NCBI GenBank assembly: GCA_964035545.1
Contig: OZ037767.1
Span: forward strand, 19,663,628 to 19,727,627
Source: Bugula neritina
Lineage: Eukaryota; Bryozoa; Gymnolaemata; Cheilostomatida; Bugulidae
Length of the DNA stretch: 64,000 nt
Direction of reading: 5' to 3'
Under the pieces are notes generated by a model. It saw nothing but the letters and a program-made list of their open reading frames with translations. It was not told the DNA's origin and searched no databases. Positions within the stretch are counted from its first letter, which is position 1. Every line of letters starts with the position of its first letter. A program made the translations under genes and the position numbers. Of the stretch, positions 5 to 46,700 are shown one piece after another.

Positions 5-1101
5 GTGGACAGATTCATGTTTGAAGGCGTCGAGCTTGACCTCCGCCAATCTTGTGCTGTATTTATTACAATGAACCCAGGCTATGCTGGGCGTACAGAG
101 CTGCCTGATAATCTAAAGGCTCTCTTCAGACCAGTGAGTAGGAGTTGTTTTGTCATGTTTTCCGATTTGCACCTTGTGATGACCATCTCTAAATGAATTG
201 TATTTAGAAAAAACTTGGTACAACTTTAAGCTGACAAAAGAAGTCGATTGACAAGGCTTTTCCCACAAAGATAATTTTCAAAACTTTCATCAATGATGGT
301 CGCTTTTTTATAACAATAAAATTATATTTTCCGGCCAGTGATTAAATGAGAGCTATGTATAGCCTATATTCACGACAACCACCTCATATAAATTACAGGT
401 GGCTATGATGGTGCCCGACTATGCTCTTATTGCTGAGATCTCGCTCTTCTCATTTGGTTTTTCTGATGCCAGAGTTCTGGCAAAGAAAATCACTTCTACC
501 TTCTCTCTTAGCTCTGAGCAACTCTCATCACAAGATCATTATGACTTTGGTGAGTGACTGTAGATTGATAAGATCATTATGACTTTGGTGAGTGACTGTA
601 GATTGGTAAGCTTATTAGTCGCCATTTCATGTGACAAAGATTAGTCATATCACTCATGAGACGTTTGCTCATTAAATGGCATCTGTTAGTTTAAAGTATA
701 ATTATTTCTAAAATTAAAATACAGTTGAAATGAAAAACTATGAAATCCTTTATCTTCAGTGCATAGATTTCATGATACATTCTTGGTTTAGGGAAATTTT
801 ATCATGTCCCTGTAGTTGTAATAATTGTAGTGTTTTTGTATGTGTAATAGTTGCAGTGTTTCTGTAATTGTTATAGTTATTGTGTTTCTGCAGGTAAGAC
901 CTGTATTCTGTGTATTTTTCAGGTATGAGAGCAGTCAAGTCTGTGATATCAGCCGCAGGTAACCTGAAAAGACAGAACCCTACAATGAGTGAGGAGTTGA
1001 TTTGTCTGCGGGCTATCAGAGACGTCAATGTGCCCAAGTTCCTTATGGAAGATCTTAAGCTGTTTACTGGCATCGTCAGTGATCTCTTCCCTAATATCAA
1101 G
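5..1101 (+). CDS. DNAH1: DNAH1 exons 1-3: end of AAA1 and AAA1-AAA2 linker
   Basis: Exon 1 carries [18 protein letters not shown], the AAA1 segment shared by all dynein heavy chains downstream of Walker B. An in-frame TAG at 2-4 means the exon must start by splicing after the AG at 3-4, so position 5 is its first base. Exon 2 (399-549) continues with the [19 protein letters not shown] segment. Exon 3 (923-1101) holds [13 protein letters not shown]. The end of exon 2 and its donor are duplicated in tandem in the following intron. Splice assignment is firm because the translation is continuous across every junction. Confidence 0.88.
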
Positions 1102-4100
1102 GTGTGAAAAATCATAGAACTTAGGCCACAGTCTGAACTCTGACACCAATATAAAATAAGTAGCAAAATAACAATATAATTTAGTAGTTTCGTGTTTTAC
1201 ATTTTGATTGGCCAATAATATTTTAGGAAGAGCCAATTGACTATGGAGAACTAGAATCGGCGCTGAGAAAGCAATGCCTAAAACTACACTTGAAGGATGT
1301 AGACTTGTTCATACACAAGTGTATTCAGTTGTACGAGACAACGGTGGTACGACATGGCCTCATGTTGGTTGGCCCTACTGGTTCCGGTAAAACTAAGGTA
1401 ACTCGTCATGATAATTCATATTCAACTTTTGGGCAATTGTTGTTATACTTTTGTGTTTGAGTGTTGCTATCACTGCGTTTTCATTGCATTGAATGGATTC
1501 CTACAAATCACTTGACAATGGATTTGTGGTTGTGGTAGTATTCAATTGACACTATGCCCATGCATTGAATGATAAATTCATTGCATAATGTGAACTAAAT
1601 GCCAATAGCTAAAAAATTGTGCTTAGAAAGTGATTTTAACACAATTATTTTGATGACTTGCTTGTATAATGTGAAAAATGGAAGAAATTGTTAGATTGGT
1701 TTTCATTGAAAGTCGTGAACATGTAAAGGCATTTCAATTGACCCTTTTCTGTCAGGTTTTTAAAGTTTACTATTCCATAGCTTGTTATCTGGATAATTTA
1801 CACTAAAAAAAACCGAGTGTGTCTACTAAGGATAAGAAATATAGCATGCGTTTACTTCTTTATTTTTTATAACTCTGCTAGTTGTTAATTTTGATGCTGA
1901 TAATATTTATATGTTGCAGTGCTATGAAGTGCTGAAGAACGCACAGACATCCTTGAATGGAGTAGAGTCACCTTCTGGAGACCTGTTTGTGCCCACCCAC
2001 AGCTATGTGTTGAATCCTAAGTCTATCACTATGGGCCAGCTGTATGGAGAGTTTGATCTCATGACCCATGAATGGTGGGTAGATAATGTTTAATGCTGTC
2101 AGATTACATAATCCGATATTCTGACAGAAAGGGTGTTAGTTTCTTTTTATTGCTATACCCAAAAGTTTTTTTTACAAAATTTAATTAACCAGATTGTACA
2201 CATTGAATTTTATGTTAGACAGGCATACTGTTTCATTATAAAAATTAAACGACTTAGTGTGACCATTCAATTTTTACGAGATGCCGGGCTAGTAATTTTA
2301 AAGTTGAAACATAGCTTGTATTACTCTGTTGTAACTTCTAATAATTTAACATGGTTTTTATTGCCTTGTTGTATCTACTGCTGTAACAGGGTCTATATTG
2401 CTGTAAAAGAGACTCGAATGCTGTAAAAGGGTCTGTGCTGCTGTAAAACAATTCTGGATGTTGTATTGTAGGACTGATGGTATTCTCTCAACACTCATCA
2501 GACTGGGTTGTGCTGCCGATGACGTTGACAAGAGGTGGTTTGTGTTTGATGGGCCAGTAGACGCTGTCTGGATTGAGAACATGAACACCGTACTGGATGA
2601 TAACAAGAAACTCTGTCTTAGCTCTGGAGAGATCATCAAACTTACTAATGTATGTACACCTTCTCTACAACCTTGTATAAACTTACTAATGTATGTACAC
2701 ATTCTCTCCAGTATCTGTACAAACTACATGATGTTGCATAACTAATACATTGAATGGCAATACTGGTTGATACTCAATCTCTTGGAGATTTTCAATTTGT
2801 ATGCACATAACATTCTAGTTTTCTTTCTATTCCTTACCACATATATTACTGAGTTTCAACATATAACCCTTACCTACATCATTTAGATTGCGTTTCTTGC
2901 AGGCTATGACTATGATGTTTGAAGTTCAGGATTTAGCAGTTGCCTCCCCTGCTACTGTGTCTAGATGCGGTATGGTTTATTTGGAACCTGGAAATCTTGG
3001 ACTGGAGCCATTTGTGGATTGTTACTTGAAGTGTCTTCCTGACCTCATTTATCCGTTCAAGGACAAGTTCAAGACTCTGTTTGACCAGTTTATGGAGGTG
3101 AGAGTATATCTGTATATAATACTGTAAGGTGAGAGTATATATTATACTGTAAGGTGAGAGTATATTATACTGTAAGGTGAGAGTATATTATACTGTAAGG
3201 TGAGAGTATATTATACTGTAAGGTGAGAGTATATTATACTGTAAGGTGAGAGTATATTATACTGTAAGGTGAGAGTATATTATACTGTAAGGTGAGAGTA
3301 TACTATACTGTAAGGTGAGAGTATACTATACTGTAAGGTGAGAGTATATTATACTGTAAGGTGAGAGTATATTATACTGTAAGGTGAGAGTATATTATAC
3401 TGTAAGGTGAGAGTATATTATACTGTAAGGTGAGAGTATATTATACTGTAAGGTGAGAGTATATTATACTGTAAGGTGAGAGTATATTATACTGTAAGGT
3501 GAGAGTATATTATACTGTAAGGTGAGAGTATATTATACTGTAAGGTGAGAGTATACTATACTGTAAGGTGAGAGTATACTATACTGTAAGGTGAGAGTAT
3601 ATTATACTGTAAGGTGAGAGTATATTATACTGTAAGGTGAGAGTATATTATACTGTAAGGTGAGAGTATATTATACTGTAAGGTGAGAGTATATTATACT
3701 GTAAGGTGAGAGTATACTATACTGTAAGGTGAGAGTATACTATACTGTAAGGTGAGAGTATATTATACTGTAAGGTGAGAGTATATTATACTGTAAGGTG
3801 AGAGTATATTATACTGTAAGGTGAGAGTATATTATACTGTAAGGTGAGAGTATATATTATACTGTAAGGTGAGAGTATATTATACTGTAAGGTGAGAGTA
3901 TATATTATACTGTAAGGTGAGAGTATATTATACTGTAAGGTGAGAGTATATTATACTGTAAGGTGAGAGTATATTATACTGTAAGGTGAGAGTATATATT
4001 ATACTGTAAGGTGAGAGTATATTATACTGTAAGGTGAGAGTATACTATACTGTAAGGTGAGAGTATTTCTGTTGCAGCCTGCCATCCAGTTTGTACGAAA

Positions 4101-7100
4101 GAACACCACAGAAATTGTTGGCACAGTTGATAGCAGTCTTGTGTTAAGCCTGTTCAAGATGATAGACTGTTTCCTCTCCCCTTACGTACCTAAAGAGGTA
4201 AGAAGCTCAAGCTATATTTTAACTTTGACATTTCAAAGACTTTCTTCAACCTTTTAGCTGCATTTACACCTTTTTACCAGTTGTTAATTTCTACTTTTGT
4301 ATTTGCAACTCAACATGTAGCTGAGCAGTTTTGCATTTCTCCTGTTAGACTATTTTTGTTAAAATGTAGTTACTGTAATTTCGTAGTTTTAAAGTTCTTT
4401 TTTTCTCATAACAGATTTTGATATTAGGCTCAGATCCTAATGCACCAGTTTGTGTAAGTTTGAGACCGTATCACTGGCAACCCTTCTCTCTGCATGCAAA
4501 CATTATGTTACATCATGTGCCATTGCGCCCAAACAAAGTTTTGCATGTTGTCATATGAGTTTATACTTGTTGTCCTACAATTCAGGGTTCATTGAAAAGT
4601 TCGCTTTACTCTGATACATTCCCAAAACTGGTTTGCATCGAAACTGCATAATAAATTTGAGACACGATTTTATATAAAATATGATAACTGTTCTAAAAGA
4701 TAAATCAATTTCATTTTCCTTTTTTCTATATCTGTATAAATTGTTTAATTGTGATTTTGATAGTAAAGTTTTTCATATCGTATAACATAACCACTCTGGT
4801 GGTTGTAGTACTGTGCCATGGTTATGAGTTGCATACTGATTATGTATTGTGTTGTCATCTAGTGTACATATATTCATGCTGTTATATTTTACTGTAATGC
4901 ATATAGCGATACTACGGCAACCAATCGTACAAGGTAACCACTGAATCTCTTGCTAGTTGAAACTTATTATTTCTGTGTTTTGTTCACGAGGGTGTTGGTT
5001 ATTACTAGTATTTTATTATGTTATAAGAATGTCTGTAAACTCATAAACCTTTTCTTTCAGTTCTCTGTTTAGTAAACTTTGAAAATTGTATTATCCAAAT
5101 ACTTAGTTGTTTGCTAGATCCGGGAGGAGGAAGGGCGGTACTAGCTACACCCGTATCAGAGTTTTTCTGATAGACAGTTAGGTTTTTCAGGCTGCAAAGT
5201 CATGTGAAAACACACTGCAACATGTTTAGCAAGCATATTATCTTTTACTAGTATAAGCATATTATTAAACTAAGTGTAGTTTGGCTACTATAACTTCTGT
5301 CTCTCTACTTGACTTCATCTACCTACCTAGCTAGATACTTGCATGCTAGCATCATCATCTTTCTAGAAAGTTCTTTTAATGGGCGAAATGGTCTACAAAT
5401 ATTTTCTCAAGAGACAAAATGGTACCAACTTTAACTGCTTCCATGTATAACTAGAAAATGCCTTAGTAGCTATGCTAGAATTAGTTTATGGTTCAAGTAT
5501 GTCAATCGCAGCCACTGGCGTGATGTTTGTTGAATGTTACACCTTTTTGTTTCTGTTGATGTGTTAAAAGTGAATAGGTATACTCACTATAATTGAATGA
5601 ACTGATTGTAGGAACCAATACAGATTCCACAAGAGAGATTGGACCGGATTGGAGAGCTGATTGAACCGTGGTTTATATTCTCTCTTCTCTGGTCTGTTGG
5701 GGGAACTGTAGACAATAATGGCAGGAAGAAGTTTGATGCATATCTTAGAGAGCAGATGAAAGAGCATTCGGTTGGTGTATAGAGTCTATTCCACATATTA
5801 ATTGGTGACAACTAGAATTTTTACAATATCTTTGCTAATTGCGCGTTATCAATAGATATCTGAAATGGTGAACACAATGCGATAAGTTACAACAGTAATT
5901 AATTCCTTTTATCTTGGTGTGATTTTTTATTTATCTGCTAGAATTTTTTTAATGTATTTCTTTTTTTATTTTATCTGCTAGCAATTTAGTTTATTTTAAT
6001 TCCTTTATTTTTGTGCTAGTTTATATACATATATATTATAGCAAATATCAATGTGACATATCGCAATACAAAATTTTTAAGATCACATTATGACAAAAGT
6101 AACATTTGTAATTATGTTATACATGTATAGTCTTATTGAAAACACTTTCTTTTATCATTGAGTACCTGGTTATCTTTACTTCAGCCACTACTACTTGCAA
6201 ATTAATAGCAGTATTGCTAGTAATAAAAATGATTATTTATATTATTGCTAGTATCACTATTTATGGTGGTTATATTAGCATTACTACTTGTATTAGTAAT
6301 AGCATTAGTAAGAAGCTTTACTTACTATTACTTTATGGCAAATATTTTAACCATACCATTTTTCGTCGTGTTGTACACTACAATGTGTGTATTGTAATAT
6401 TGTAGTAGACTGTAACATATTTTATGTCAGCATTTGTTTGCGGGACATTTATTGGACAGTATGTGCCTGAGTTATACTCTGCAGTCTTTCAACTTTGTTG
6501 TTATAGATCGGGTTGCAGTTCCCAGAGCAAGGACTTGTCTATGACTACAAGCTAAATGATGCCGGGCTGACTAGTGCCAACATGGATGATGGTGAAGATG
6601 ACGATGACGCCAACAACAAAAAGGAAAAGGTCTGTTTTAGATTTTTAGTTCATTCTACAATTTTGTTAAAGATCTTTATTTATTCTTACACTTAGCGAGA
6701 GAAATGGAATATTGTAGAAACTAAGAAAAAGTTTGTGTTCTTATTGAAAAAATGGCAAAAGAAGTTGTGTTACTAAGAAATTTTTAGCTTATGCCCCAAC
6801 TCAAAATTTTATATATAAAGGCAATTAAAAATCTAGGCTATTAAAGCTTCTCCATTATTGGCTACCACACTTATATGTTAGTTTGGTCTGAATACTACAA
6901 TAAAAGTGTTAAATTATACAGGATGTTTGTTGGCAAAACTGGATGCATGGTCTAGAGAAGTTTGAGGTGCCGGCCGAGGCTAAATTCTCTGATATCATCG
7001 TACCGACACTGGATACAATCAGGAACTCTTTCATCCTGGAGAAACTTTTGACTAACAATAAAACTGTGAGTAGTAAAATAGCTAGTGACTAATAACTAGC

Positions 7101-10100
7101 AACTAATAACTGATAACTAATAACAGCTGCTGTGGCCACATAGACATTTAATTTAAGACTATAAAATGTTTGTATAAAAGTATTGTAAATTGTCTGTTAC
7201 AAATTTAGTAATAATAGTAACTCTCATTATGGTATGTATATGGAATATATAAGTAAGGCATACTGTAAGCTTCTTATAGATCACTTACTCATTTTTTTTA
7301 GGTTTTGTGCGTCGGCCCCACCGGTACTGGAAAATCATTGGCTATATCAGATAAACTAATCAACGGCATGCCGAGTCAGTATGTCCCAGAATTCATTGTC
7401 TTCTCAGCCAAAACCTCTGCCAATCAGACTCAAGATCTGATTGATGGTAAGCTAGACAAACGAAGGAAGGGAGTGTTCGGGCCCCCTTTGGGAAAACAGA
7501 TGGTGTTCTTCATTGATGATTTGAACATGCCGGCTCTAGAGGTCTATGGCGCTCAGCCTCCTATTGAACTCATCAGACAATGGTGTGACTTTAAAGGATG
7601 GTATGACAGAAAGGCTATTGGTAAGAATTACATCACAGTGCTTGATACTATCATATGATCTGTTAAAATAAAATACTTTTCTGTAAAACTACTTAATAGC
7701 AGTTTAGAAAAAGTAGAAGGTATAATATATATTGTCAACAATTGACTTGTACATCACAACAGCTTATGCCAGTTCAGGTGACAAAAAAGTATATGCACTA
7801 AATAGTAAAGCATTACTACTAACGCAGACTAATCGCCTGAGTTACTAGTTGGGTTGGGATTTAAGGGTTTGGGTGGGAATGTGGGTTGGGAAAATTTAAC
7901 ATCAGTGTGCTATTTTTACCTACTTTGCTATTTGTGCCATTATTACCTGTGGCATTTTTACCTGTGACATTTTTACTGGACACCAACTCTGACTAATTAC
8001 AACGTGTCGAAGTTAATTGTTTGTTGCTTCTAAGGTGACTTCCGAAACCTGGTTGATGTTAACTTTGTGGCTGCCATGGGGCCACCTGGTGGTGGGCGTA
8101 ACCCCGTGACTCCTCGTCTTATGCGACATTTCAACTTCCTGTCTTTTACTGAGTTGGAAGATGAATCACAGATTAAGATCTTTGGAACTATTCTGCAGTC
8201 CTGGACATGTGAGTTTGTTAGTTAGTAGAAAGGTTTACTGACTACTCTACAGTAACTATAAGCATCACTCGGTCAGCTTCAGTTGTTAGAATTAGAACAA
8301 TTAGTGTGTTTATTCGATCAACTGTATTACAGGTAGTTTATAGTTGAATGTAGTTGGAACTAACAACTAAACAATTCTTAATTTACCATTTAATGTGTAA
8401 AATGATACGGAGTGATAACTGAAGCTGATGTTTTAGATGGAAAATGTTTACGGCAACTTTTAAGCACAATATTTTTACTAACACAAAGTTCTTTAATCAC
8501 ATACTACTATCAATTATATAATTAAACAATTTTTTTGCTATGTATAATCGTTATGCTTTATGATTCCAGCTCAAGCCCCGCCCATTGTCGAACACAATAT
8601 CCAGCTTACAAAGACTACAATGTCAGTCTATTCTACAATCACCAACACTCTTTTACCTACACCAGCAAAGAGCCATTACACTTTCAACCTGCGAGATCTG
8701 AGCAAAGTCTTCCAGGGAATTCTCATGTTTAACCCAACAAATATGCCAGTTAGTTTCATGCTGTCTGCATATACTACATTACAGTGTAACTTGAACTTAT
8801 CACTTATTAAGTCAAGCATGTCAATGGAGTAGATGTGGTCTAGGGGTTAGAGCGCTGGCTCAGTAAACACAAGGTCATGGGTTCCATACCCAGTTAAGGC
8901 CATTGGTGATGTTAGTAAGAGTATCCAGTCATAAATGCTCCTGTGTGACATATGAATAAGTCCTTAGCTCGATTTCACGAACCCTTTTCATCAGGGGTTT
9001 CTCAAAGGGATAATAACTATAAAGTTGCATGAATTTGTTGTTAAGTCAATCGCATCACTACGAGAAAATTACATATAAATTTGTCCTTCTGTTATTCTTA
9101 GGACCTGCCAGCACTACTTAGACTCTGGTACCACGAGAGTTGTCGGGTTTTCCAAGATCGTCTCGTCAATAATGAAGACAGGCAGTGGTTTGATGATCTG
9201 TGCAAACAGAAGATGAAGGAAGACTTTAGCCAGGAGTTTGAGGAGGTGGTGGTCCAGTCCCCCTTACTCTACGGGGATTTCATGACTGGGGACACAGGCA
9301 CTTATGATGAGATTGTTGATCACACTAAAGTATGTCATCTTTGAACAGCTAATTATTAAAATATTGTGGACCACTTTTCGTTTTGCTATTTCTCTAAATT
9401 ATTTCGACTCTATAAATATGTCACACTCAATAACACAATAACAACTAGCATGCCACACCAGTTGTTGTGAACCAATGAAATCAATATCAATATTATCTGC
9501 TGAAACTTGCAGATGGTGAAGGTCATTGATGAGTTCCTGGATGACTATAACCAAGTCAACACGGCGCAGATGAAGCTAGTTCTGTTCAATGACGCTGTGC
9601 GCCACGTCTGCAGAATTGGGAGAATTGTCAGACAGCCTCTGGGCAACGCCCTTCTACTTGGCATGGGAGGTGAGAGCCTGAAAATAGTGTTGACTTATAA
9701 AGTTTTCAGCTACTATAAAATAGCATTACATGACGCATTATAAAATGATATACCTTATGCTATGATCAGTAAGTGTGCAAGTCAGTACCACTTTGGCATA
9801 TATATAATTCATTTTATTTAATCATTATTCTTTGGTGTTTTACATCATGTTACGGTTCAATGTGCTTCTCTGTAGGCAGCGGCAGGCAATCTCTTACTCG
9901 TCTGGCAGCGCATATTGCCGACTTCACCTGTTTTCAAATTGAGCTGAGCAAAAACTATGGTATGACCGAGTGGAGAGACGACCTCAAGAAGGTCATGCTA
10001 CAAGCAGGTCTCGAGAGCAAAGCAACGGTCTTCCTGTTCAGCGACACGCAGGTATGTAACTTCTTACAGGAGAGCATAATTCCCTACAGGAGAGCATAAA

Positions 10101-13100
10101 TATTCACAGGAGAGCATAACTATTTACAGGAGAGCATTTCTCTTTAGAAGAGATCATAACTCCTTACATGAAAGCACAACTCCTTACAGGAGAGCACGAC
10201 TCCTTACAGGAGAGCATAACTACTTTGCATCACACCACAGTGTGATAAGCCACTATTGGTTAACTATTCCAGTAAAAAAAACCTAACAATCAAGTAACTG
10301 ATAAATTCTAAGGCGGGTGTAATAGAAGCGTTTATGTTTGCATGCTCTATCATGCTACAGTTGCATTCCTGGAAGATATCACACAATTTTTATTTGATTA
10401 GTCATATAAATGTTTAATTTATAATTATGCATATGAGAATAAATAAGAGATGGGAGAAAGTGTTTAAAAGCACTACCCACTAGATAATTGCTACACAGTA
10501 GTATTTCTGTACTGTAGATAAAGTCCGAGTCCTTCCTTGAAGATATTAACAACATTCTCAATGCTGGTGACGTCCCAAACATCTACTCCTTTGACGAGTT
10601 GGACCAGATCTATACAGCCATGAAGCCTATAGTCCAAGATGCAGGCCAGCAGCCAACTAAAACTAACTTGTTCTCAGCCTACACTAAGCGTGTCAAGGCT
10701 AATCTACACACCGTCATCACAATGAGGTTAGCGGCAGCAGCAGCAGCAACTCCTCATTCTGTTGTATTATCACAATGGATATTTGATAGTATGAATTTTG
10801 AAAGGCTGTTTTTCACCTGGAACTTTTACACATCTTTAAACAACACAACATTTTTTTCAATCTTATTAACTAATAAGAGTTTTATGGCATAGAAATGCAA
10901 GGGTGTCTCTCTAATGCATTACTTAGTGAATTGTTGAGACACTCTGTGAACATGTCTATCTACATCACAGAATATTTCTGCATAGTACACACAATATTAT
11001 GTTGGTTATAATTAACAAATCTCTTTTTAAAGCCACAACGAAGTGCGAGGTGACAGGAGATCTTTTCAATAGCATTTTGTGGATTGAAATCAACCTTTTG
11101 CCATAGTTAAGGTCAATCTACATGCATATATTCACTTAATCATAAAAATCTTATTCATACAGTTTTACAGTTTGCTTTTATCAAACAAGAAGGTGCTCTG
11201 GTAGAATTTCTAGGCCGAGTGTTTTTGTTTACTTGTTGGTGGAATACTAATTTAGTAGTGCTATTTGGAGTTATCTTCTCTATAGAGTATTCACCACTTA
11301 TGTGTGTCTGTAGCCCTATAGGGGAAGTATTCACCACTCATGTGTGTCTGTAGCCCTATAGGGGAGGTATTCACCACTCATGTGTGTCTGTAGCCCTATA
11401 GGGGAGGTATTCACCACTCATGTGTGTCTGTAGCCCTATAGGGGAGGTATTCACCACTCATGTGTGTCTGTAGCCCTATAGGGGAGGTATTCACCACTTA
11501 TGTGTGTCTGTAGCCCTATAGGGGAGGTATTCACCACTCATGTGTGTCTGTAGCCCTATAGGGGAGGTATTCAGAGCTCATGTGTGTCTGTAGTCCTATA
11601 GGGGAGGTATTCAGAGCTCATGTGTATCTGTAGCCCTATAGGGGAGGTATTCAGAGCTCATGTGTATCTGTAGCCCTATAGGGGAGGTATTCACCACTTA
11701 TGTGTGTCTGTAGCCCTATAGGGGAGGTATTCACCACTCATGTGTGTCTGTAGCCCTATAGGGGAGGTATTCACCACTCATGTGTGTCTGTAGCCCTATA
11801 GGGGAGGTATTCACCACTCATGTGTGTCTGTAGCCCTATAGGGGAGGTATTCAGAGCTCATGTGTATCTGTAGCCCTATAGGGGAGGTATTCACCACTCA
11901 TGTGTGTCTGTAGTCCTATAGGGGAGGTATTCACCACTCATGTGTGTCTGTAGCCCTATAAGAAAAGTATTCACCACTTATGTGTGTCTGTAGTCCTATA
12001 GGGGAGGTATTCAGAGCTCATGTGTATCTGTAGCCCTATAGGGGAGGTATTCAGAGCTCATGTGTATCTGTAGCCCTATAGGGGAGGTATTCACCACTTA
12101 TGTGTGTCTGTAGCCCTATAGGGGAGGTATTCACCACTCATGTGTGTCTGTAGCCCTATAGGGGAGGTATTCACCACTCATGTGTGTCTGTAGCCCTATA
12201 GGGGAGGTATTCAGAGCTCATGTGTATCTGTAGCCCTATAGGGGAGGTATTCACCACTCATGTGTGTCTGTAGTCCTATCGGGGAGGTATTCACCACTCA
12301 TGTGTGTCTGTAGCCCTATAAGAAAAGTATTCACCACTTATGTGTGTCTGTAGTCCTATAGGGGAGGTATTCACCACTCATGTGTATCTGTAGCCCTATA
12401 GGGGAGGTATTCAGAGCTCATGTGTATCTGTAGCCCTATAGGGGAGGTATTCAGAGCTCATGTGTATCTGTAGCCCTATAGGGGAGGTATTCAGAGCTCA
12501 TGTGTATCTGTAGCCCTATAGGGGAGGTATTCACCACTTATGTGTGTCTGTAGCCCTATAGGGGAGGTATTCACCACTTATGTGTGTCTGTAGTCCTATA
12601 GAGGAAGTATTCACCACTTATGTGCGTCTGTAGTCCTATAGGGGAGGTATTCACCACTTATGTGTGTCTGTAGTCCTATAGGGGAAGTATTCACCACTCA
12701 TGTGTGTCTGTAGTCCTATAGGGGAGGTATTCAGAGCCCGCCTGCGACAGTTCCCGGCGCTGGTAAACTGCTGCACCATTGACTGGTTCTCTCCCTGGCC
12801 ACAAGAAGCTCTACAGTCTGTTGCCTGGAGATTCCTTGGAGATCTCATTGATCTTGATGAACGAAGCAACATTGACGGAATCGTAAGTTTTACTTCTTTC
12901 TTCATTTTAGTATTTTTTCTGTTGACTATATTATACATGTTAATAGTATATCTGTTGACTATATCGTACATGTTACTAGCACATCTGTTGAATATATTAT
13001 ATATGTTACTAGCACATCTGTTGAATATATTATATATGTTACTAGCACATCTGTTGAATATATTATACATGTTACTAGTATATCTGTTAACTATAGTGGA

Positions 13101-16100: not shown

Positions 16101-19100
16101 GACAAAGACAACATACCTGAAGCTGTTATTACCAAGATCCAACCGTATATTGACAACCCGGTATTCACTCCTGCTAATATTGAGAAGGTGTCTAAAGCCT
16201 GCACTTCCCTGTGTCAGTGGGCCAGGTAGATAGACACATTATAGTATTATATAAGCTATAGCGTAGTGTATTCACTATAGCATATGTGCTACAGCATATG
16301 TAATAGCTGAATACACAACATTGCTTGTAATAAGTAATCTGTTGCTGCAGTTAGCTTTTTGTTATTAGATTTTTAAACTATGCAAATGTTGAAGGGAAAA
16401 AACATTGCGAACCTATACTTACAGAGCTAAATATCATATACTTACAGAGCTATATATCATATACTTACAGAGCTATATAACATATACTTACAGAGCTAAA
16501 TAACATATACTTACAGAGCTATATATCATATACTTACAGAGCTATATATCATATACTTACAGAGCTATATATCATATACTTACAGAGCTAAATATCATAT
16601 ACTTACAGAGCTATATATCATATACTTACAGAGCTATATAACATATACTTACAGAGCTAAATAACATATACTTACAGAGCTATATATCATATACTTACAG
16701 AGCTATATATCATATACTTACAGAGCTATATATCATATACTTACAGAGCTATATAACTTATACTTACAGAGACATATAACATATACTTACAGAGCTACAT
16801 ATCATATACTTACAGAGCTATATATCATATACTTACAGAGCTATATATCATATACTTACAGAGCTATATATCATATACTTACAGAACTATATAACATATA
16901 TTTACAGAGCCATGCACAAATACCATTTCGTGGCAAAGTCAGTGGCACCAAAGAGAGAGGCTCTGAGACTTGCTCAGGAATCTTTGGCCGAGACGCAGAG
17001 AATTCTGGATGCAGCGAAAGCTCAGCTACAGGAAGTTGAAGAAGGTCTGGCCACGCTGCAGGCTAAATTTGACGACTGTACACGGAAGAAAGAGGAACTG
17101 CTGAACAAGTGTGAAGAATGTGAAGGAAGACTTGTTCGAGCTGATAAGGTGGGCGTTATCTTAGATTCGTTTATTGAAGCATTTAATCACACAGTTCATA
17201 AGTGTTAGTTGTAGTAATCGATACGTTGGGTTTTTATCAATTCTTTATTTCATTATGTTTCTAAATATTCCAGTAGAAACCTAACTTTGTTTTGTCTATT
17301 AATTTAAATTTTGCTACATGTTTTGAGTTATATTTTATTCATCAAGTTTATTGAAAAAGGAATAGATGCTAGTAAATGAAATTACTTTTTGTTACTACTA
17401 CAACTCTATTTATTTGTAATGTATGTGAGTAAACTAGTGACTTTTCTTTCAGCTGATTGGTGGATTAGCAGACGAGAAGGGAAGATGGGAAGAGTCTGTT
17501 GAGAGACTTGAGAGAGAGATCGATTTGATTGTTGGAGATGTGTTGATCTCCTCTGGTGCTGTAGCATATCTTGGTCCATTCACGGTTAGTATGTAACGCG
17601 TAGAGATACGTGGCGAGTAGAACATTAAAAGTTTGCAACCTGTGTTCTGTTTTCAGTACTAGAAAACGATAAAGTTTTAATTGAACTACTATCTTGCAGT
17701 CTTATACAGGTGATGGTGATATTATAGTTACTTGGCTGTGCACTGTCCACTAGTCAGACATAAACTACTTCTATAAAGTATTTCTTTCTGTTATACTAAT
17801 ACATAGGATTACATTGTAGGGTGAGTTCCGAAATGAAATGATGTCTAATTGGCTGAAGAAGTTGGGTGATACTGAAGTGCCCCACACCGATGAGCCCAGT
17901 ATTGTAAGCACTCTAGCCGATCCAGTGAAGGTCAGGAGCTGGCAGATAGCTGGCCTTCCCAAAGACACGCTGTCGGTAGAGAATGGCGTTGTCACCCAGT
18001 TCTCCCGGCGGTGGTGTCTATTTATAGATCCCCAGGGACAAGCCAACAAGTGGGTCAAGAACCTGGTAAGTTTCATCCTATCTTCGTCTATTGTGAAAGG
18101 TGTTTGCTTTACTGGCTTAAAATATCACTATTAGAGATTCCATAATAACAAAATTTCAGCCAGTCATTGTAGTTCAATCCTTTATTGCATCGATGTTTGA
18201 ATGAGCAACGTATGTTTTTGGTAAAGCCATGTCTAAATTGGTAGTAAGAATTTACTAACAACATTTGATAAAATTGTATCAAAATAGGCTATTAGCTTCA
18301 TAATCTGGAATTAGCAGACTTCTGGAGTTAACAAACATAAGGCACAGGGTTTGTTCAGTCTGTCACTCTGATACCGACTGTAACTAGTTAGTCTTTAAGT
18401 TGTGTAGTGTTGATATTACCCAGTAGCCGGAGGTCTCGGGTTCGAATCCCAGTGTGCGCAAAAGTTTTACAGGTTGCTAGTGATTATTGTCGAATGTGTG
18501 TAGGAGCGTGAGGCGGGACTGGACGTCATTAAACTGTCTGACAGAGACTTTCTCAGATCCTTAGAGAACGCCATTAGGTTTGGTAAACCCTGCCTACTCG
18601 AGAATGTTGGAGAGGAACTGGATCCTGCCCTAGAGCCAGTCTTACTCAAACAGACTTTCAAACAGCAGGGTAAGAGAGTTGTACTCATACTTTAATTCTG
18701 CATATACTTGATGTTGCATATACTTGACGCCTGCATATACTTGACATCTGCATTTACTTGACGTCTGCATATACTTGACGTCTGCATATACTTGACATCT
18801 GCATATACTTGACGTCTGCATATACTTGACGTCTGCATATACTTGATGTCTGCATATACTACCTGAAGTAAATAAACGTTTATCCATGTTTTCACACTAA
18901 AGGAAGTCTGGTGCTGAAGCTAGGAGATGCTGTCATACCATACCACGAGGACTTTAAGTTCTACGTGACTACTAAACTGCCAAACCCTCACTACACGCCA
19001 GAAGTCTCGACTAAGGTTACTTTAGTCAATTTCACTCTGTCTCCTAGTGGCTTAGAAGATCAACTTCTGGGTGGGTATCTTGTTATGTTCACTTGGAGCA

Positions 19101-35500: not shown

Positions 35501-38500
35501 CAATTAATGGCAACAAATTTCTGTGAAAGAGCAGGTCTTAGTTGGGAAAGTATTAAGATGGATACTGTTAACATTTGCTTCTGGGTCAGCTTGGGAAATG
35601 AATAGTGTTTAAAAAAGATGTGATCTAAACGAAGAGGAGGTGGTTCATTTGGAGAGGGAGTGGTTTAATTAGAGGGGGTGTGGTCTGTTTGGAGAGGGTG
35701 TGATCTATTTGGAGAGTGTGTGGCTTAAATGGAGAGGGTGTGGTTTCAATGAATAGAATGTGATCTAAAAGTAAATATGTGATCTAAATGCTGTCACTGG
35801 TCTAAACAGAGAAGGTGTGGTGGACATAGAAAGTGTAATAACTAGAAAGATTGTGACAGTTGTAAGTGACATGGGACTGGTGAGGTGGAGGAAAATACTA
35901 AAAGTCTAAAACATTTTCCATGTATAAATTACCATAAAAATAGTTGCATATATTAATCTCAATCTAATATATAATTTTCTACAAATATTTATACAATAAA
36001 TTTCTACAAGTAGGCGCCATGCTGAATATTGATGAGTCAGCAGCTGGTGGTGGTTTATTGAATAGCTGAGCATAATATATTGGAGTTTGCAAGAAGTGAA
36101 TTAGTGATATGGTGATTTACACATGGAAAGGCATGGAAGGAATGGGATGCGGTGATGTGACTGGTATTTCAAGGTAACATTCAACTCCCAAACCTGAGTT
36201 ATCTGTCCTGAAAACTATAATAGAACACAGAATGTAACATCATTACAATGCTGAAGCTGGTATATAGACTGTTTAGAACTCGCAGAACAGAAGAAAACAA
36301 GAAACTTAAAGAGCTTTGAAACAGATAGCCACCCACTCAGGAGCTAATTAACTGTAATGTTTACCAAATCATCATCTGATTGGTCGAGTCTCTCTGATGA
36401 TGACCTTTGTTTGGATCGAAACAGCTGAGTGAGAGGTGTAGCACGGCGGTCTAAAATCATATTATTTTGCATTATATTATATTATAGGCTTCAACAGATA
36501 TAAACTAGAAAGACAGTGCAAAGCTTAAAATAGCGATGTTAAAGCCGAAGCTAACAAATTAAACAACCAGTAAAAAACTGAAATTCAATGGCTGAATAAA
36601 AGGCAGCAGCCATGGTCTAGTTACTAGTATGACAACCAGACCAGTAGAACCAATCTTAACAGAAGCTAATAGTAATGTCAGCATACAGTCTATATAATTC
36701 ACTAAATAAAATGAAGGACCCAAGTAGCAGCTCGCACAGCCTAACAGCCATTTGACATCCTGCATCCTGATGAATTCTAATATATAGACAATGCCAAGGG
36801 AGTCTTACTAGATTTGGGGCTGCCATCTGGAACGTTAGAAAGAGATTTGGATCTTGGCTTGAGTTCAGAAGACAGGTCTGGATTCGTGTTGGATTTTTTG
36901 AGAATAGATTTAGACGGGGCACTGCGCTCAGGAGCTCCTGTATTTAGAGTAGTCAACAGTAGCATCTTGCAAAGCTTTAACAAAACAGACACAATCAACT
37001 GTTGACAAAATGTTTGCTACAGCCTAAATGCAAAATCAACCATAACTTACAAACCCATATTTTTTCAACACCTCAAACACTTGGTGGATTTAAAAAGATA
37101 TAATTAAACAATAAAAAAACTAAACCGGGTGAGGTGAAATCTGCATGGTAGCCAAACCTCATCTTTGTTTGAACTTAGGAATTCCCAAGTACCCTGTTTT
37201 AATAGTTTTGGTTAGGAAAGTCACATTACGATGTGAACCAAATTTATTACGATTTAAGGATTCTAGATATTTGCCGTAAATTCGTCGTGCATGTATATAA
37301 TTAGTGTGTATATAATAGGTATGTAGTCCCATTGTACCGATAGTCTTGTATACATTCTCTCCTGCATTTTCTAGACGCTCTGCCAAAACTTCTAAGCTCC
37401 TTTCTTGTCTGTCATCCTGAATTATTAATTAAATTATTTTCATTCCAAATTTTTCGTACTATTCTTGATATACAAATACCTGTTATACTCAGTAAATAAC
37501 ATAAATACACTATTAGTTACTAGTGAATAACAGTTACACTGACAACTAGTTACTACTGACTACTAGTTACACTGACTACTAGTAACTAGTGAGTAACAGT
37601 GACACTGACTGCTAGTTACTAGTGAGTAACAGTTACACTGATTACTAGTTACAAATAACAGTTATACGAACAACTAGTTACTAGTGAGTAACAGTTATAT
37701 TAAGTACTAGTTACTAATGAGTAACAGTCACACTGACTACTAGTTACTAATGAGTAACAGGCACACTGACTACTAGTTACTAATAAGTAACAGTCACACT
37801 GACTACTAGCTACATACACTCTCGTCATCAGATGTTGAAGAAGGACTTTTCTTTCCCGCTGCTCTCTTTCTCGGAGAGGAAGAAGGTGCGGACTGTCTAT
37901 TCTTCTTGTAAGCTGCATACAGACAGTCAAGTTAGAACACAACAATAAAAGCACGCATCAACAACCTCCATATACATGTGTATTCCTACTCTCAGACTAT
38001 TCTAGGACTCTCAGACTATTCTAGTACTCTCAGACTATTCTAGTACTCTCAGACTATTCTGGTACTCTCAGACTATTCTGGTACTCTCAGACTATTCTGG
38101 TACTCTCAGACTATTCTGGTACTCTCAGACTATTCTAGTACTCTCAGACTATTCTAGTACTCTCAGACTATTCTAGTACTCTCAGACTATTCTGGTACTC
38201 TCAGACTATTCTGGTACTCTCAGACTATTCTGGTACTCTCAGACTATTCTGGTACTCTCAGACTATTCTAGTACTCTCAGACTATTCTAGTACTCTCAGA
38301 CTATTCTAGTACTCTCAGACTATTCTGGTACTCTCAGACTATTCTGGTACTCTCAGACTATTCTAGTACTCTCAGACTATTCTGGTACTCTCAGACTATT
38401 CTAGTACTCTCAGACTATTCTGGTACTCTCAGACTATTCTAGTACTCTCAGACTATTCTGGTACTCTCAGACTATTCTAGTACTCTCAGACTATTCTAGT

Positions 38501-40099
38501 ACTCTCAGAATATTCTAGTACTCTCAGACTATTCTGGTACTCTCAGACTATTCTAGTATACATACTGCCAGGTTTCTTGCCATTGCCCGGCAGCTGTTCA
38601 TTCACCACGTCTGCTGCTGCTGCTCCGCTGTTTGTGGACCTCATCTTCCTGTCTCTACCGAGGTGCTCCTCCAGCATCCTGATTAGTTCTATTCTCTGTA
38701 CGGAGCCGAGTAGGATCATGTTATCTATACAGTAAGTATAGCGTGTGACTTACACACCTATACAGTAAGTACTTACACATCTAGACATGCTATTTGAACA
38801 CATCACTACAATGTATATATAGTCAAGGTTCTTATCAGTGTGCTTGTGTGTTGGGCCAAGGTGAGACGTCCCCCATTTTATATCATAACTGAATATTAAG
38901 CATACAATACATTGGATATGAAATTGGTGCCTAGCTTTAACACAGTTTCAGTTAATATTGGTAACATACATAAGTCTAGCTGCTTAGAACTATTTCATAT
39001 TGCTTCTTGTTATGGTATATAACCATTCATACTTGAACAGTCAAATTTTTTCACATGCTAAAATAAAAATATTCTCGTATTCAACAAATTAAATGTATTA
39101 TCCAATAATATAAGTAAAGTTATTACTGATTATATATTATGGACAAAATTTTTTAGTTTATTTAGTTTCCACAGAGACAAATCATTTCTCCTCAACACTT
39201 CGGAAAAATGCTTTAAATGATATAACTCACACTATGTTATTGGTGCATTGTCTATGCTCATTACCAGCATACTATATTACATATACTGTTATACTGCATG
39301 TTATATTATGTATGCAGAACTCCTATAAATGGGATGGACAACATACAGTGCTCCCATTCTTATGACATTCTATAGGTCACGACCAGGGCTTGGACCCCTG
39401 CTTTGTGGCTTATGTATGTTTGTACAAGGACAAAATGGCCGAATCTATTCTACTATGTCATGAATTGAGGTCTCAGGACCAGAAAACTAGTGAGATATGG
39501 AGGGAACACATACTAGCCTAAGAACCTTACTTTTATTCTCTACGAGGGGAAATGTGCGCAACCCTTCATTCTGACTGAGCAGACTCCTGATGTCTTCATA
39601 GGTAGTCGACTCATGGCTGATTATCTTCACGTCTTTCACCATGATGTCTTCAGCCATAGTTCTGTGAGCACTGGTAGAGTAGGTGGGGTTAGTAGAGTTA
39701 TCAGTGTGAGATCATTGTGTCATACATACAGTATATATACAATACACAGAGTACATACCTACAGTATATATACAGTACATACACACAGAGTACATACATA
39801 CAGAGCACATACACAGAGTACATACCTACAGTATATATACAGTGCATATAATACACACAGTACATAATAAACACTAGCCCCATACCTCGAGTTATTAGGC
39901 AGAAGGTTGGGCAGGTAAGGCAGCCGTTTGATCTGTATTATGCTGTCATATATAGAGGGCTGGAGGATGTTGGCGACAGCGTTAGCTATGAGTACAGCCA
40001 GGACAGCCGGGAGAAGGTGGGAGAGCTGTCCAGTCATCTCAAACACTATCATACTGGTGGAGATGGTGCGGGTCACTGCTCCTGATAATGCTGCCGCAC
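29539..40099 (-). CDS. CLCN2: Channel exons 13-22: last helices, CBS domains and C-terminus
   Basis: Exon 13 (40099-39886) has [20 protein letters not shown] and [12 protein letters not shown]. Exon 14 (39661-39531), with [13 protein letters not shown], starts CBS1. Exon 15 (38724-38566) has [12 protein letters not shown]. Exons 16 to 19 encode a Ser/Lys/Pro-rich linker with [17 protein letters not shown]; exon 19 is only 36 nt ([12 protein letters not shown]). Exon 20 (31628-31503) has [16 protein letters not shown], and exon 21 (30951-30865) has [20 protein letters not shown], forming CBS2. Exon 22 begins LRKAISGP and ends at stop TGA 29541-29539. Confidence 0.9.
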
Positions 40100-43000
40100 C
40101 TACACACAGGTATTAGTACTCACAGGTTGTGTAGGTAGGTGTAACAGGCAGATGCAAGTTATACACCAACAGAAAAGTGATGCAATAACAGCCAGATAAA
40201 TCTGCCTATGCTGGTTTGACATTAGTAACGCACAAGTTACTCAGCTTTTTCTGTGCCTGACGTTGATTGATGGAGATTTTGGTTATAAAATGAACAAAAG
40301 AAGATTTAGGAATAGAGTTGGAGCAACACAGCAGTCATAGCAATGCGCCTTGTGAAAAAGTTACCACCCCTGGTGATACTTTAGCTACTACCCCTCGTGC
40401 TACTTCAGTTACCACTCCTGGTGCGCCCTGTGAAAAAGTTACCAACTCCGGTGATACTATAGTTACTACCCCTGGTGATACATGTAGTTACTACTCCTGG
40501 TGATACATGTAGTTACTACTCCTGGAGATACTAGTAGTTACTACCCCTGGTGATACTAGTAGTACTTACCCACAACAGCGTAACCAGCTGGTATTACTTG
40601 ATAGATCGAGTATCCATTGTTTATACCATTTGGAAAGAAGACGTACATGGCCTCCCCTACTAGTCTGCCAAATGCAGCACCTAAAGATAGTATTGTAGTT
40701 TACCGGTAAATATACATGTACTTTATACCAGTATATAATATGCACTATGTAATCGCGCATACATGTACTGTGTAGTAGTATATACATGTACTTAGCGACT
40801 CAGTGATTATATACAATACGTGTAGTGACTCACCCATAGCAAACACAGGTATAAACACACCAGATGGAACAGGAAGTGTGATGGCCACGGCTGACATCAG
40901 AAACTGTAAGAGAGAGCACCTTGTGTATGTTACTTACTATAAACACCATGTACGTTACTTACTATAAACACCATGTATGTTACTTACTATAAACACCGTG
41001 TACATTACTTACTATAAACACCATGTATGTTACTTACTATAAACACCACGTATGTTACTTACTATAAACACCATGTACGTTACTTACTATAAACACCATG
41101 TACGGTACTTACTATAAACACCGTGTACGGTACTTACTATAAACACCATGTATGTTACTTACTATAAACACCACATACGTTACTTACTATAAACACCATG
41201 TATGTTACTTACTATAAACACCACGTACGCTACTTACTATAAACACTATGTACGTGGCTTACTATAAACACCATGTATGTTACTTACTATAAACACCATG
41301 TACGTTACTTACTATAAACACCATGTACGGTACTTACTATAAACACCATGTATGTTACTTACTATAAACATCGTGTACGTTACTTACTATAAACACCATG
41401 TATGTTACTTACTATAAACACCACATACGTTACTTACTATAAACACCATGTACGTTACTTACTATAAACACCATGTACGTTACTTACTATAAACACTATG
41501 TACGGTACTTACTATAAACACCATGTACATTACTTACTATAAACACCATGTACGTTACTTACTATAAACACCATGTACGTTACTTACTATAAACACTATG
41601 TACGGTACTTACTATAAACATCATGTACGTAACGAGGGACACCCATATTGAGGGATTGTCCCACCTCGCAATGATAATCTGCTCGTCTACAGTCAGCATC
41701 TCATTGTACTTGTCACTCCACGTCACATTAGCAAAGAAATCTGACAGTGCTCGTCTGAAAGTTATCTGCAGAAACAGAAAGGATATAGAAGCGTTTTATT
41801 GAGAGGCATTAAACTACAAAATTATACCATTTATATAAAAATATTTCGTTTTAATTTCAAGCAAATAATGGCTGAGTTCATAGCCAGTTAAGTGATTTTA
41901 ATATTCATTCCCATAATTAATAATGACAAATTCCAGGGAACTTTTTTGATAGCAAAATTTGTTTTCTTGTGAATTAAAAACAAGAATAAAGCATAGCCGT
42001 GGATTTTACAAATTATGAATAGATGAGAGTCTATACTAACCCCTCCACCCATATACTGTCCAAGAGATTGAGGGCAAGTGGCTGCAGTAATAATGGAGGT
42101 GACTATCAGTGGGTATATGAACCGACTAAAACAATATGCACAGCATTATTGAGTTCATATACGACATAATATATTACAACAGAGCATTGCATTGTGTGAG
42201 TAAAAGTGTAACAATATTACAGCCGTAATGTAATATTTATATGACATGGCAGTGAAAAGTGAGCATTAAAAATTTAGTATAGTTAAACTCTTACACAGTA
42301 TACAGCTGTAATATAGATATTACATTACTCATAATTGCAATAAGAAGTGTAGCTACACAAATAGAAGCTGCAATGACTGTCCCCTAACAGAGCATGTGTC
42401 CAGAGTTGAATTAAACTCACTAGCTTTGAAGGAAGCCAGAAAACCTCTTATTTTTTCTCATCAGGAACACAAACTTGCGATGGAGCCACACGAACAGAGC
42501 TCCAGCCAAGCCGCTGAAGAACCTGCAATGAACAGCCTCCCTGATACAAGAGTGGATATGCGGGAGAGAGTTGGTAAAGTCTCACAGGAAATCAAACTTT
42601 TATGATGTATGATTGCATGTCACATCCTTAGTTCCACAAGTTACTATACTGCAAAGTACTGCACCGCAGTAAATACTTACCCGATGCCCGCAAAACACAG
42701 GAACTCTGCCGCATCAAATGGAAACTCGTGACGTAGCGTAGTTCTAAAGATGGCCGTCACCGTGTTCTCATCCTCAAACCAGATGGCACACAGTCTAAAC
42801 AATATAGCCGCACACGCTGCTGAGAAGAAGCCTCGCCAGTAGTTTCTGACAGCGAAGTACGTGGCAGTTACTTCGATACTAAACAGCACGCCCCCTATCG
42901 GGGCAGCAAAGGTGCAGGCAACTCCAGTAGCTGCTGCCGCTGCCAGCATTTCATTATTCCGTGATTCATTCTAGCAAAACAGAGTACAGTGTAATATATA

Positions 43001-43671
43001 ATATACAGTACAGTGTGGCATACAATATACAGTACAGTGTAACATATAATATAAAGTACAGTGTAACATATAATATAAAGTACAGCGTAACATATAATAT
43101 ACAGTACAGTGTGATATATAATATACAGTACAGTGTAATATATAATATACAGTACAGTGTGATATATAATATACAGTACAGTGTAACATATAATATACAG
43201 TACAGTGTAATATATATATACAGCACAGTGTAATATATAATATACAGTACAGTGTAATATACAATATACAGTACAGTGTAATATACAATATACAGTACAG
43301 TGTGATATATAATATACAGTACAGTGTGACATATAATATACAGTACATATTATTTTCCTCACCTCATAGATGCCTCTGAAAGAGCTGATAGACTTACTAA
43401 GTAGTGTGGCAACTATACTGGCTATATGAACAAACGGACCCTGCAATCAACAAGTTTATACAATAGATAAGTACACACGCAGTGTAAACTTGTACACACT
43501 TGGCACAGTTACAATTAGAGAGAATCAAGTACTGTAAATACAGCAACACACCATGAGTTCTATTCTCACTTATAACTATTTGCCCACAAGTTGGTATTAT
43601 AATAGTCGACGGAGGTTTCCAGAAAAATCATAAGAATTATCTAATATAAAAGAACCCACAGAGAAAATATA

Positions 43672-43708
<37 letters not shown>

Positions 43709-46700
43709 TATAGCCAGGGACAGGCAACTTCATAAACTGCTGACAAACTACTGACTGTTAGCAGAATAAGCCTAAAGACACAAACCTCTTTACCAAACGG
43801 CAGCCCGCTGCCGAGCGAGGTGGTGAGGCCGACCATCTTGGAGAGCAGAGTTCTGAAAGTGAGATACTCCTTGAGAATGACGCCTCTTAGAATAGTTTTC
43901 ATCTCAGGAATTCCTGAACCTGGAGGGCAGAAAGACAGACTACTGTGCAGGAGATTTTATGGATGACAACTCCAAATATTGAGTATTAAAATGATTAGAG
44001 ATAATTATGTTGGTAAATCTGCTTTTACACAAACTATGCATTCTGAGATGAGAGTTTAGGATGATTCTGGAGAGATATGAATTAGGAGTATTAATCTAAT
44101 GTTTTTACTTACCTATTGCGTTGGGAGCTACCATGTGCACAAAGTAAGTAGAGAAGAGTATAAGTATGATGGGGTAGACAATCCACGTGGTGACTTGTAG
44201 GGCGGGGTGGATCCTAGCAGCCTCCTCATACATCACATTATGGGCTGGAATATATGCAGCACTGAGGCTAAGTTTAACATCTGGTATTTTGTGAATTGTA
44301 TAGTTGACTTGTTTGAGTTTTCGATAAATTAACCCCTAAGGCCTAAAACTTTGGTTTCAGGATTCAAACTTGTTTTTGTTGACATAATTTGATGTGCTTT
44401 ACACTTGTTAGGGAAAAGAATGGGGATTGGCATATACCCTGAGTGTCACCTCAGATATATAATTGAAAAATCATGTTTAAATGGGACTCTCCTAAACTCA
44501 TGGGGACTATTATATATCTCTGTAACTGAAATGTGAGATACCACTGAATAAGCCTGAAGAGGTTAATGAATACAGATACATGGTGGGAAGAAGGCAGAAG
44601 GGAGGCCCTTGAAAATCCATCAACATACTTACAGACTATTCAGTAGTACTTTACCCATGACATGATGTAATAATAGATATATACAGATAATACACTGGCT
44701 GAGATAAGATGTGGCCATAGCAGTACAATGCAATAACTGCAGTACAATGCACTAAACAATATGAACTGACAACACGATAAGAGATGGAATTCCCACACAG
44801 CTGTTAGCTTTTCTAAAATCATTAGCACATCTCATACATTCAAAGTGACCTGTGCTCGGTTGATGCAGATTTATCAGGATTTCAATGATGTAACAAAACA
44901 GCTGATGCACATGGTTGAGTGATGCAGTCAAAACTAACCCCTTAAAACAGCTTCTCCCCCTCTGACAACACCCTAGAGGGGCACTGCCCCCTGGTGGGAC
45001 GTCAGCCTTACCTTCTAATAGATGGAGGATACAGAAGTCCATGAGGAAGCTCAGCATGGCCATAATACATCCCAGCAGAAACAAGAATATCCAGTCCTCT
45101 CCTATCTTGTTCACCACAACCCGCATGACAGCGCCACAACCTGTGGGAGAGGTAGAAAGTGTTTCTGTACCTCGGAGTGTATTCAGACATATAGACACAC
45201 AGACAGACTGGTAGACAGACACGCAGACAGACTGGTAGACAGACACACAGACATACTGGTAGACAGACACACAGACATACTGGTAGAGACACACAGACAT
45301 ACTGGTAGAGACACACAGACAGACTCACCTGAGAGACAGACTCACCTGACAGACACTTGTAGCATCTGCTCTGCTCAAAGTGCCGCAGCTTCTCAATCTC
45401 CTCTCGACTCTTGTGAGTCAGCATCTGCTGCTTCTGGAGTCTCTGCAGCTGAATCTCCCTGGCTATGGCAGCGAGGTCTTCAGTCACGTAGTGGCCACTC
45501 ATCTGCACAGACAAAATCACGTAATACAGAGCTCAGTGGGCTGGAGAATACAGAACCAGAACGTAAACTATCTCACAGTACAAGGTGCCTCTAGTTAGCT
45601 TTTGGCAAAAAATGAAGCAATTTGAGCATTATTGTGCTGCATTAATTTTGGCTTTTGCTTGTTAAGTGGCATAGCCCAGGTGTAGTGCTATATATGCTTT
45701 GTTTAGGAGGCTACTGACATAGCCAGGCTATAGGGTGTAGTCTAGTGTGAAAACAAAACAACACACTGGTGAAAAATATGTGTTGAATAAACAGGAGTCT
45801 GTCTAACAAATGGTGGAGAAATGACTCAGTACACAACATGGTATATATTATTGCTAAAGTCGAGCATTGCTCACAAATACTTGGCAAGAAAATATCTAAT
45901 TACTGTGTCACATGTGTGGAAACATACAGCAGCTGCAATAGTCTTAGTCACTGATAGAATAGTAATACTAGCAGTTCATTGCGACCCACTACTACTGATA
46001 CTATTCACTAATGTGTTGGTCACTAACAAGTGATGTATGTGTAGTAGTACATAACATAGTTATGTATAGTTGATAGTATAGTATAACATAGTATAGTATA
46101 GTATAACATAGTATAGTATAACATAGTATAGTATAACATAGTATAGTATAACATAGTATAGTATAACATAGTATAGTATAACATAGTATAGTATAGTATA
46201 ACACAGTATAGTATAGTATAACATAGTATAATATAACACAGTATAGTATAACATAGTATAGTATGACATAGTATAGTATAACATAGTATAGTATAACATA
46301 GTATAGTATGACATAGTATAGTATAACATAGTATAGTATAACATAACATAGTATAGTATAACATAATATAGGAATACAGAGTAGTTTATCACACTGAGAC
46401 AATTAATGACAATATTACAGACTTGAAAAAAGGTGAATTGTTATACTAACTCAAAACGAAATTGATAAAAATGCTCAACTTCTCAAACAGTGGTTAATGT
46501 TTCTAAACATATTGAAAAAGCATGCATCACAACTAAGTGTGATGTACAGTGTTACAATGTACTTTACAGCCATGCTAATATTGGACACATCTCCTCATTA
46601 GTACAATGTGATTCATGTCAGTACTCTGTAGTTGATAGCTAATAAGCATAATACATGTACTACAGCTAGCAACAACTACAATAGTTACCGTGGTAACCAA

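Follow-up and report, generated by a model that had tools for sequence, protein, structure and literature searches.

In lancelets, tandem duplications are known whose units cover the border between an exon and an intron; they were termed mirages in the Adh3 and globin genes (PMC3087553) and were likewise noted in the genes for troponin C and PGBD5 (PMC3902484); according to the accessible parts of both papers, splicing of these genes appeared regular. The AGGT model of intron gain is covered in the available part of a review (PMC3443670), while the part of PMC2206037 at hand mentions tandem repeats, none of them at boundaries. In a literature search that covered mostly non-subscription papers, boundary duplications outside the lancelets were not found. 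Here, we describe such duplications in the bryozoan Bugula neritina, in a stretch of 64,000 nucleotides (GCA_964035545.1, contig OZ037767.1, positions 19,663,628 to 19,727,627; labelled C3 in our analysis and hereafter called the window) that is part of a genome of 215.8 Mb and carries the 3' part of the gene for the dynein axonemal heavy chain 1 (DNAH1) and a ClC-type chloride channel gene. The arrays at the exon borders of these genes are mirages, that is, minisatellite-like tandem duplications that include the exon-intron boundary. They probably result from an intron-wide formation of tandem repeats that is tolerated at the borders, any bias towards the intron edges being a few-fold at most. 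An earlier note on the window had regarded junction-anchored arrays as unreported; as the accessible parts of PMC3087553 and PMC3902484 show, the lancelet mirages are known examples.

Tandem arrays at the splice junctions of two genes

Our analysis covers one haplotype of a region of 104 kb, consisting of the window and of 40 kb upstream of it that had not been available to the earlier note; negative coordinates denote positions upstream of the window start. Tandem Repeats Finder (TRF) returned 65 rows for the window and, once merged and with a period of at least 7, 60 arrays for the entire region. The 89 introns of the final gene models hold 42 TRF arrays, and 11 of these cover an exon edge (7 donors and 4 acceptors). 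Of the edge-covering arrays, four are located upstream of the window start. By comparison, 20 dinucleotide shuffles of the introns, with 6 nt kept fixed at both intron ends, yielded a mean of 4.5 arrays (maximum 8) and no edge-spanning array at all (mean and maximum 0). No TRF array is situated wholly within an accepted exon, a repeat-rich predicted exon at -22881 having been removed beforehand. The view of the earlier note that the arrays are real is thus upheld beyond chance, and so are its copy-number series, which spans 2 to 42, and the recurrence of junction arrays in unrelated genes, which extends to loci on another contig (C1) outside the window.

In the clearest arrays (41613, 549, 12714, -13420, -22142), the unit contains the splice site together with coding bases. 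Units with exonic and intronic bases of the real boundary are present at the donors 549, 2649, 41613, 45346 and -13420 and at the acceptors 12714 and -22142; outside DNAH1 and the channel gene, they occur at the loci L033, L036, L042 and L045, where the TRF arrays contain 26, 21, 13 and 24 exonic bases, respectively. Homology of the flanking exons backs the cases in DNAH1 and at L036, L042 and L045. A further group of arrays begins at the splice site and has 1-3 exonic bases or none (3097, 21487, 16908, -16027, -17829).

The earlier note had named eleven junctions, whose exon numbers we matched by counting. Exonic bases are clearly duplicated at exons 2, 6 and 19 of DNAH1 and at exons 2 and 10 of the channel gene, and at DNAH1 exons 7, 34 and 25 the start of the array and the splice site are at most 3 bp apart; the exon 38 donor and the exon 39 acceptor are weak or decayed cases, and the exon 17 donor does not belong to the group, as the junction is outside the array and the unit contains an acceptor-like CTTACAG and no donor (Table 1). 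The exon 6 duplication was missed by TRF, and at the exon 7 donor (3097) the TRF call begins 15 bp inside, the first unit being longer. At exon 38, the unit reads TATAAG/GTGA where the exon border reads TACAAG/GTGA, and this array is possibly a decayed junction array.

Donors were scored in four arrays. In those with 42, 20 and 28 donors, the scores are equal or nearly so; the array at -17829 contains five donors with scores from 6.3 to 9.1. Use of the next donor would disrupt the reading frame in all nine donors tested, and the insert of 41 nt at exon 6 is a frameshift. The earlier statement that the real junction is found at the exon edge fits these data; such a position is expected under selection, because use of the next donor would lose the frame.

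Table 1. Genes and tandem arrays in the region studied (positions relative to the window start; a slash marks the junction within a motif)
Feature	Position	Strand	Unit and copies	Boundary and remarks
DNAH1, 3' part	5..28456	+		45 exons modelled in the window
ClC-type chloride channel gene	36809..46795	-		18 exons modelled; Pfam PF00654
DNAH1 exon 2 donor array	532..617	+	38 bp x 2.3	exon end 549; 18 exonic + 20 intronic bases
DNAH1 exon 6 donor duplication	2638..2703	+	second copy 41 bp on	exon end 2649; second GT at 2691
DNAH1 exon 7 donor array	3098..4077	+	23 bp, AG/GTGAGAGTATATTATACTGTA	intron almost wholly array; 42 equal-score donors; 25 unique bases
DNAH1 exon 17 array	10057..10225	+	20 bp	starts 6 bp inside donor; junction outside array
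DNAH1 exon 19 acceptor array	11287..12733	+	40 bp x 36	exon start 12714; 20 exonic bases
DNAH1 exon 25 acceptor array	16414..16910	+	23 bp x 21.6	exon start 16908; 3 exonic bases
DNAH1 exon 34 donor array	21486..21543	+	21 bp x 2.8	exon end 21487; 2 exonic bases
DNAH1 exon 38 array	24869..24987	+	19 bp	33 bp inside donor (exon end 24836)
DNAH1 exon 39 acceptor array	25177..25327	+	44 bp x 3.5, 71% matches	exon start 25323; 5 exonic bases
Channel exon 10 donor array	40924..41630	-	25 bp x 28	edge 41613; per unit 18 exonic + 7 intronic bases
Channel intron-filling array	42983..43347	-	24 bp x 15	intron 42971-43362; 27 unique bases; neither splice site included
Channel exon 2 donor array	45315..45355	-	17 bp x 2.4	edge 45346; 10 exonic bases
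Upstream DNAH1 donor array	-13420	+	40-42 bp	20 donors; 18 exonic bases
Upstream DNAH1 acceptor array	-22142	+		12 exonic bases

The exon models were derived with a self-trained gene finder, complemented by alignments to solved DNAH1 chains. The 127 exon predictions on the DNAH1 strand were reduced by 53 through score or length and by the one repeat-rich prediction at -22881, and the accepted model includes the exons -34198..-34110 and -2061..-1948 and the acceptors -22142, -4405 and 12714. Channel exons were restricted to positions 36800-46800 and to a length of at least 60 bp; one was removed and one donor was placed by hand. The final models comprise 73 DNAH1 exons and all 18 channel exons, and their introns have a median length of 401 bp. 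The 5' end of DNAH1 lies upstream of the window and its exact 3' end within the model is provisional, while the identity of the channel gene is backed by Pfam Voltage_CLC matches in two exons. A consistent reading phase is found at 69 of the 72 DNAH1 joins; one of the three discordant joins was resolved by placing the exon 19 acceptor at 12714, and the introns of the other two carry no array. The alignments to the solved chains, as printed in part, are free of gaps over the joins of exons 2/3, 6/7 and 7/8 and over the upstream donors -17829, -16027 and -13420.

The predicted exons -29009..-28946 and -934..-788 were unsupported and are excluded from the DNAH1 model. The second of these (L009:9066-9212) precedes the AAA1 exon at -648..-543 (L009:9352-9457) and is similar to it; judged from its sequence, the preceding copy looks like a tandem exon duplication or a pseudo-exon.

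Position of the arrays and recurrence of a donor word

The overall number of spanning arrays lies near the expectation for chance placement. When finished arrays are placed uniformly, 7.87 spanning arrays are expected against the 11 observed (P = 0.10), and when single units are placed in pre-expansion introns (43 arrays, one of them from a second dynein locus, L030), the expectation is 8.30 (P = 0.15; ratio 1.32, 95% range 0.66-2.37). Under single-unit placement, arrays that carry four or more exonic bases are about as many as expected (7 versus 7.23). Among the non-spanning arrays, donor motifs have no sense-strand bias (13/31), and acceptor motifs lean antisense (12/30, P = 0.06). The 21 introns of the second dynein locus contain a single array, an interior one, and none at a junction; array density therefore differs between genes. 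The same locus contains two similar successive exons of the dynein heavy chain stalk region (L030:5171-5340 and 5522-5691; by eye, 48 of their 56 residues are alike), a pair that looks like mutually exclusive alternative exons. Preferential seeding of arrays at junctions is not established by these data.

Seventeen randomly chosen stretches, each 10 kb long, contain 60 arrays; these stretches were kept out of the junction statistics, because they hold few trustworthy exons. In one of them (L026:845-1421), about 2 bp separate the end of a 30-bp x 19 array from TATTCACAG/ATGGACGAG, a likely acceptor whose exon looks coding, as read by eye. By our own reading, two of the 17 stretches carry Ty3/gypsy-like open reading frames (ORFs).

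Genome-wide, the donor word AGGTAAGT is repeated after a gap of 6-36 bases at 2249 places, versus 24 places for the reversed word, with single occurrences numbering 10,267 and 6,689, respectively; AGTAAGGT is the composition-matched counterpart of AGGTAAGT, and the contrast of 2249 with 24 is one with the reversed word alone. In 102 array units, taken from the region and the random sample with ten of the edge-spanning arrays left out, GTAAGT ranks second among 90 words of the same composition, beside GTATAG, TGTAAG, GAGTAT and GTGTAA, and the reversed TGAATG is present in one. Since the arrays are rich in GTA-like words, the reversed-word control overstates the tandem effect, and the frequency of GTAAGT in array units points to composition.

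About the first 100 AGGTAAGT pairs were listed; all are on contig C1, in 21 places, 19 of which were read at the flank of the first copy (two simple repeats were dropped and one, L047, was kept). With loci classed by score and by eye, unblinded, an exon ends at the first copy of the array in 9 of the 19 loci, or in 10 if the short and uncertain L035 is counted. Of the single AGGTAAGT occurrences, the first 15 on the forward strand were read (one of them, L050, is at the end of another array), and 6-7 of these are real donors, a share similar to that of the tandem loci in a comparison that could detect only a large difference (P = 0.74-1.0). Junction exons on C1 were identified as TRRAP and kynureninase by solved structures and as caspase and OATP by Pfam matches above the cut-off; a FAT-domain match agrees with TRRAP, and an Ig_3 match at L031 is below the cut-off. 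A Pfam search with the exons of L033, L034, L036, L039 and L049 gave no match. At two other loci, L043 and L044, an exon was read by eye on the opposite strand. In the kynureninase gene (L036), an array of 27-bp units also occupies the intron that precedes the mirage exon.

Origin of the boundary arrays

Several introns consist almost entirely of repeat units. Fewer than 60 unique bases remain in 5 of 35 array-bearing introns (15, 20, 25, 27 and 52), as opposed to none of the 74 array-free introns, the shortest of which measures 93 (Fisher P = 0.0028, with the 60-nt threshold set after the data had been seen). The smallest value belongs to the intron -13419..-12573, followed by the intron with the 28 donors behind channel exon 10 (40904-41612), and in the intron 3098-4077 the units start with GT, finish with AG and are, by eye, in register with both splice sites. 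The array in the channel intron 42971-43362 includes neither splice site, and near-whole-array introns are hence not solely derived from junctions. In the three introns inspected by eye (at -13420, 41613 and 3098-4077), the downstream exon starts are unlike the units; AGGT-type intron gain is therefore unsupported.

We suggest that many short, GTA-word-rich tandem arrays form in the introns of this genome, a process to which the excess of arrays over shuffled introns points. A duplication over a donor or an acceptor would leave a single junction intact next to the exon, with the protein unchanged and the other copies turned intronic, and border repeats would be tolerated since an unaltered protein can still be made from the exon-most copy. 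Splicing would take place at this exon-most site, as the loss of frame upon use of the next donor suggests. The surplus copies would then be free to multiply and to homogenise by slippage or unequal exchange, in keeping with the near-identical copies seen, and some introns might end up as nearly all array.

A number of observations weigh against such intron-wide formation as the full explanation. More array edges than expected fall within 8 bp of an exon (16 versus 10.72, P = 0.02), and the surplus is larger without four of the near-whole-array introns (14 versus 7.03, P = 0.0027), the 8-bp margin having been picked after inspection of the data. In the independent set, namely upstream DNAH1 and the second dynein, which the earlier note had not covered, such edges number 6 of 16 versus 2.29 (P = 0.0024), and 4 arrays span a junction versus 1.90 (P = 0.044); the discovery set gives 10 of 27 near edges versus 8.43 (P = 0.29). 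Donors and acceptors do not clearly differ in number among the spanning arrays (7 versus 4), and a predicted surplus of donors is not evident. AGGTAAGT is found in tandem far oftener than the reversed word (2249/10,267 versus 24/6,689). Moreover, four near-whole-array introns have a pre-expansion length, taken as the unique bases plus one unit, of only 45-56 nt, below the minimum of the array-free introns, and random seeding in an ordinary intron is no explanation for so short a length. Either the unique body of these introns was lost after the array had grown, or the intron arose with the array.

The near-edge excess and its strength in the independent set, the abundance of tandem AGGTAAGT pairs and the real junctions at roughly every second of the 19 tandem loci read are what one would expect if splice sites, or structures formed there (R-loops, U1 binding, co-transcriptional breaks), were preferred starting points of duplication. 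Set against such seeding are the lack of an excess of arrays with several exonic bases, the comparable frequency of real donors at the single sites, of which 15 were read, the missing sense bias of the other arrays and the over-representation of several GTA-rich words, so that we regard it as rather unlikely. The claim of the earlier note that the arrays are preferentially seeded on junctions is not established, and the spanning arrays (11 versus 7.9-8.3, P = 0.10-0.15) do not bear it out. The near-edge excess may represent older junction arrays with a drifted exonic part or a real preference; as it remains, a junction preference of about two-fold, perhaps more, is possible. A more far-reaching proposal, which we consider unlikely, is that junction duplication recurrently rebuilds introns genome-wide, with copies multiplying and the old body being lost, so that hundreds of introns would be made up of repeated donors and the spliceosome would have to choose, from dozens of equal sites, the exon-most one.

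The near-whole-array introns could also have been created, or their body replaced, by duplication of a junction, along the lines of the AG/GT model that has been proposed for mirages too. The confinement of introns with so few unique bases to the array-bearing class, the register of the GT...AG units in the intron 3098-4077 and the 15 unique bases of the intron -13419..-12573 speak for such a birth or renewal of introns. It is nevertheless improbable: by eye, no similarity is seen between the units and the start of the exon that follows, loss of unique intron sequence after expansion would look identical, one of the five introns has neither splice site in its array, and the threshold that defines the class is post hoc. 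Copy numbers of long arrays are generally hard to assemble, which would favour collapsed or expanded repeats in the assembly as the source of the arrays. Given the two- and three-copy cases, the scattered unit variants within arrays and the same structure at other loci, an assembly artefact is hardly credible.

Neighbouring features and comparison with known systems

Beyond the two genes, the window contains retroelement remains on the minus strand (58503-61123 and 53101-54012) with two reverse transcriptase ORFs (RVT_1) and an integrase-like/DUF5641 ORF, and, adjoining them, a core histone ORF on the plus strand (62715-63032) that is H2B-like by eye. Elsewhere in the assembly, the small contigs C113, C176, C161, C126, C244, C232, C291, C35 and C58 have dynein or DEAD-box matches that run through in-frame TAA/TAG and contain no TGA. 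Some ciliates read TAA/TAG as glutamine, and these contigs are probably ciliate contamination or associates, to judge from their coding sequence.

With as many as 42 equal donors beside one exon, the arrays constitute a natural test of the choice of the exon-most splice site, and the near-whole-array introns are a place in which growth or renewal of introns by tandem duplication can be tested. Boundary duplications in several genes of a genome outside the lancelets suggest that repeat-prone introns, and not lancelet biology, are their source.

In comparison with ordinary intronic minisatellites and variable number tandem repeats, the arrays described here share units of about 10-60 bp, 2-40 copies and near-identical interior copies, but a subset of them includes the real splice site. 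They share with AGGT intron gain the tandem duplication with AG/GT; that model, however, duplicates exonic sequence to yield a new intron, whereas here existing junctions are duplicated. The closest resemblance is to the amphioxus mirages of Adh3, the globins BflGb6 and BflGb9, troponin C and PGBD5, in which, according to the accessible parts of the reports, the units also span the boundary at donors or acceptors and AG/GT signals are repeated across many units. In amphioxus, where splicing was examined by reverse-transcription PCR, the authentic junction continues to be used; in Bugula neritina, use of the exon-most junction is predicted from the sequence. The lancelet units, as far as described in those parts, measure 10-160 bp and are present in few copies, whereas here there are up to 42 donors per intron, several cases in one gene and introns that are nearly whole arrays. 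The new aspects are single introns with 42, 28 and 20 near-equal donors, and introns that consist almost entirely of array.

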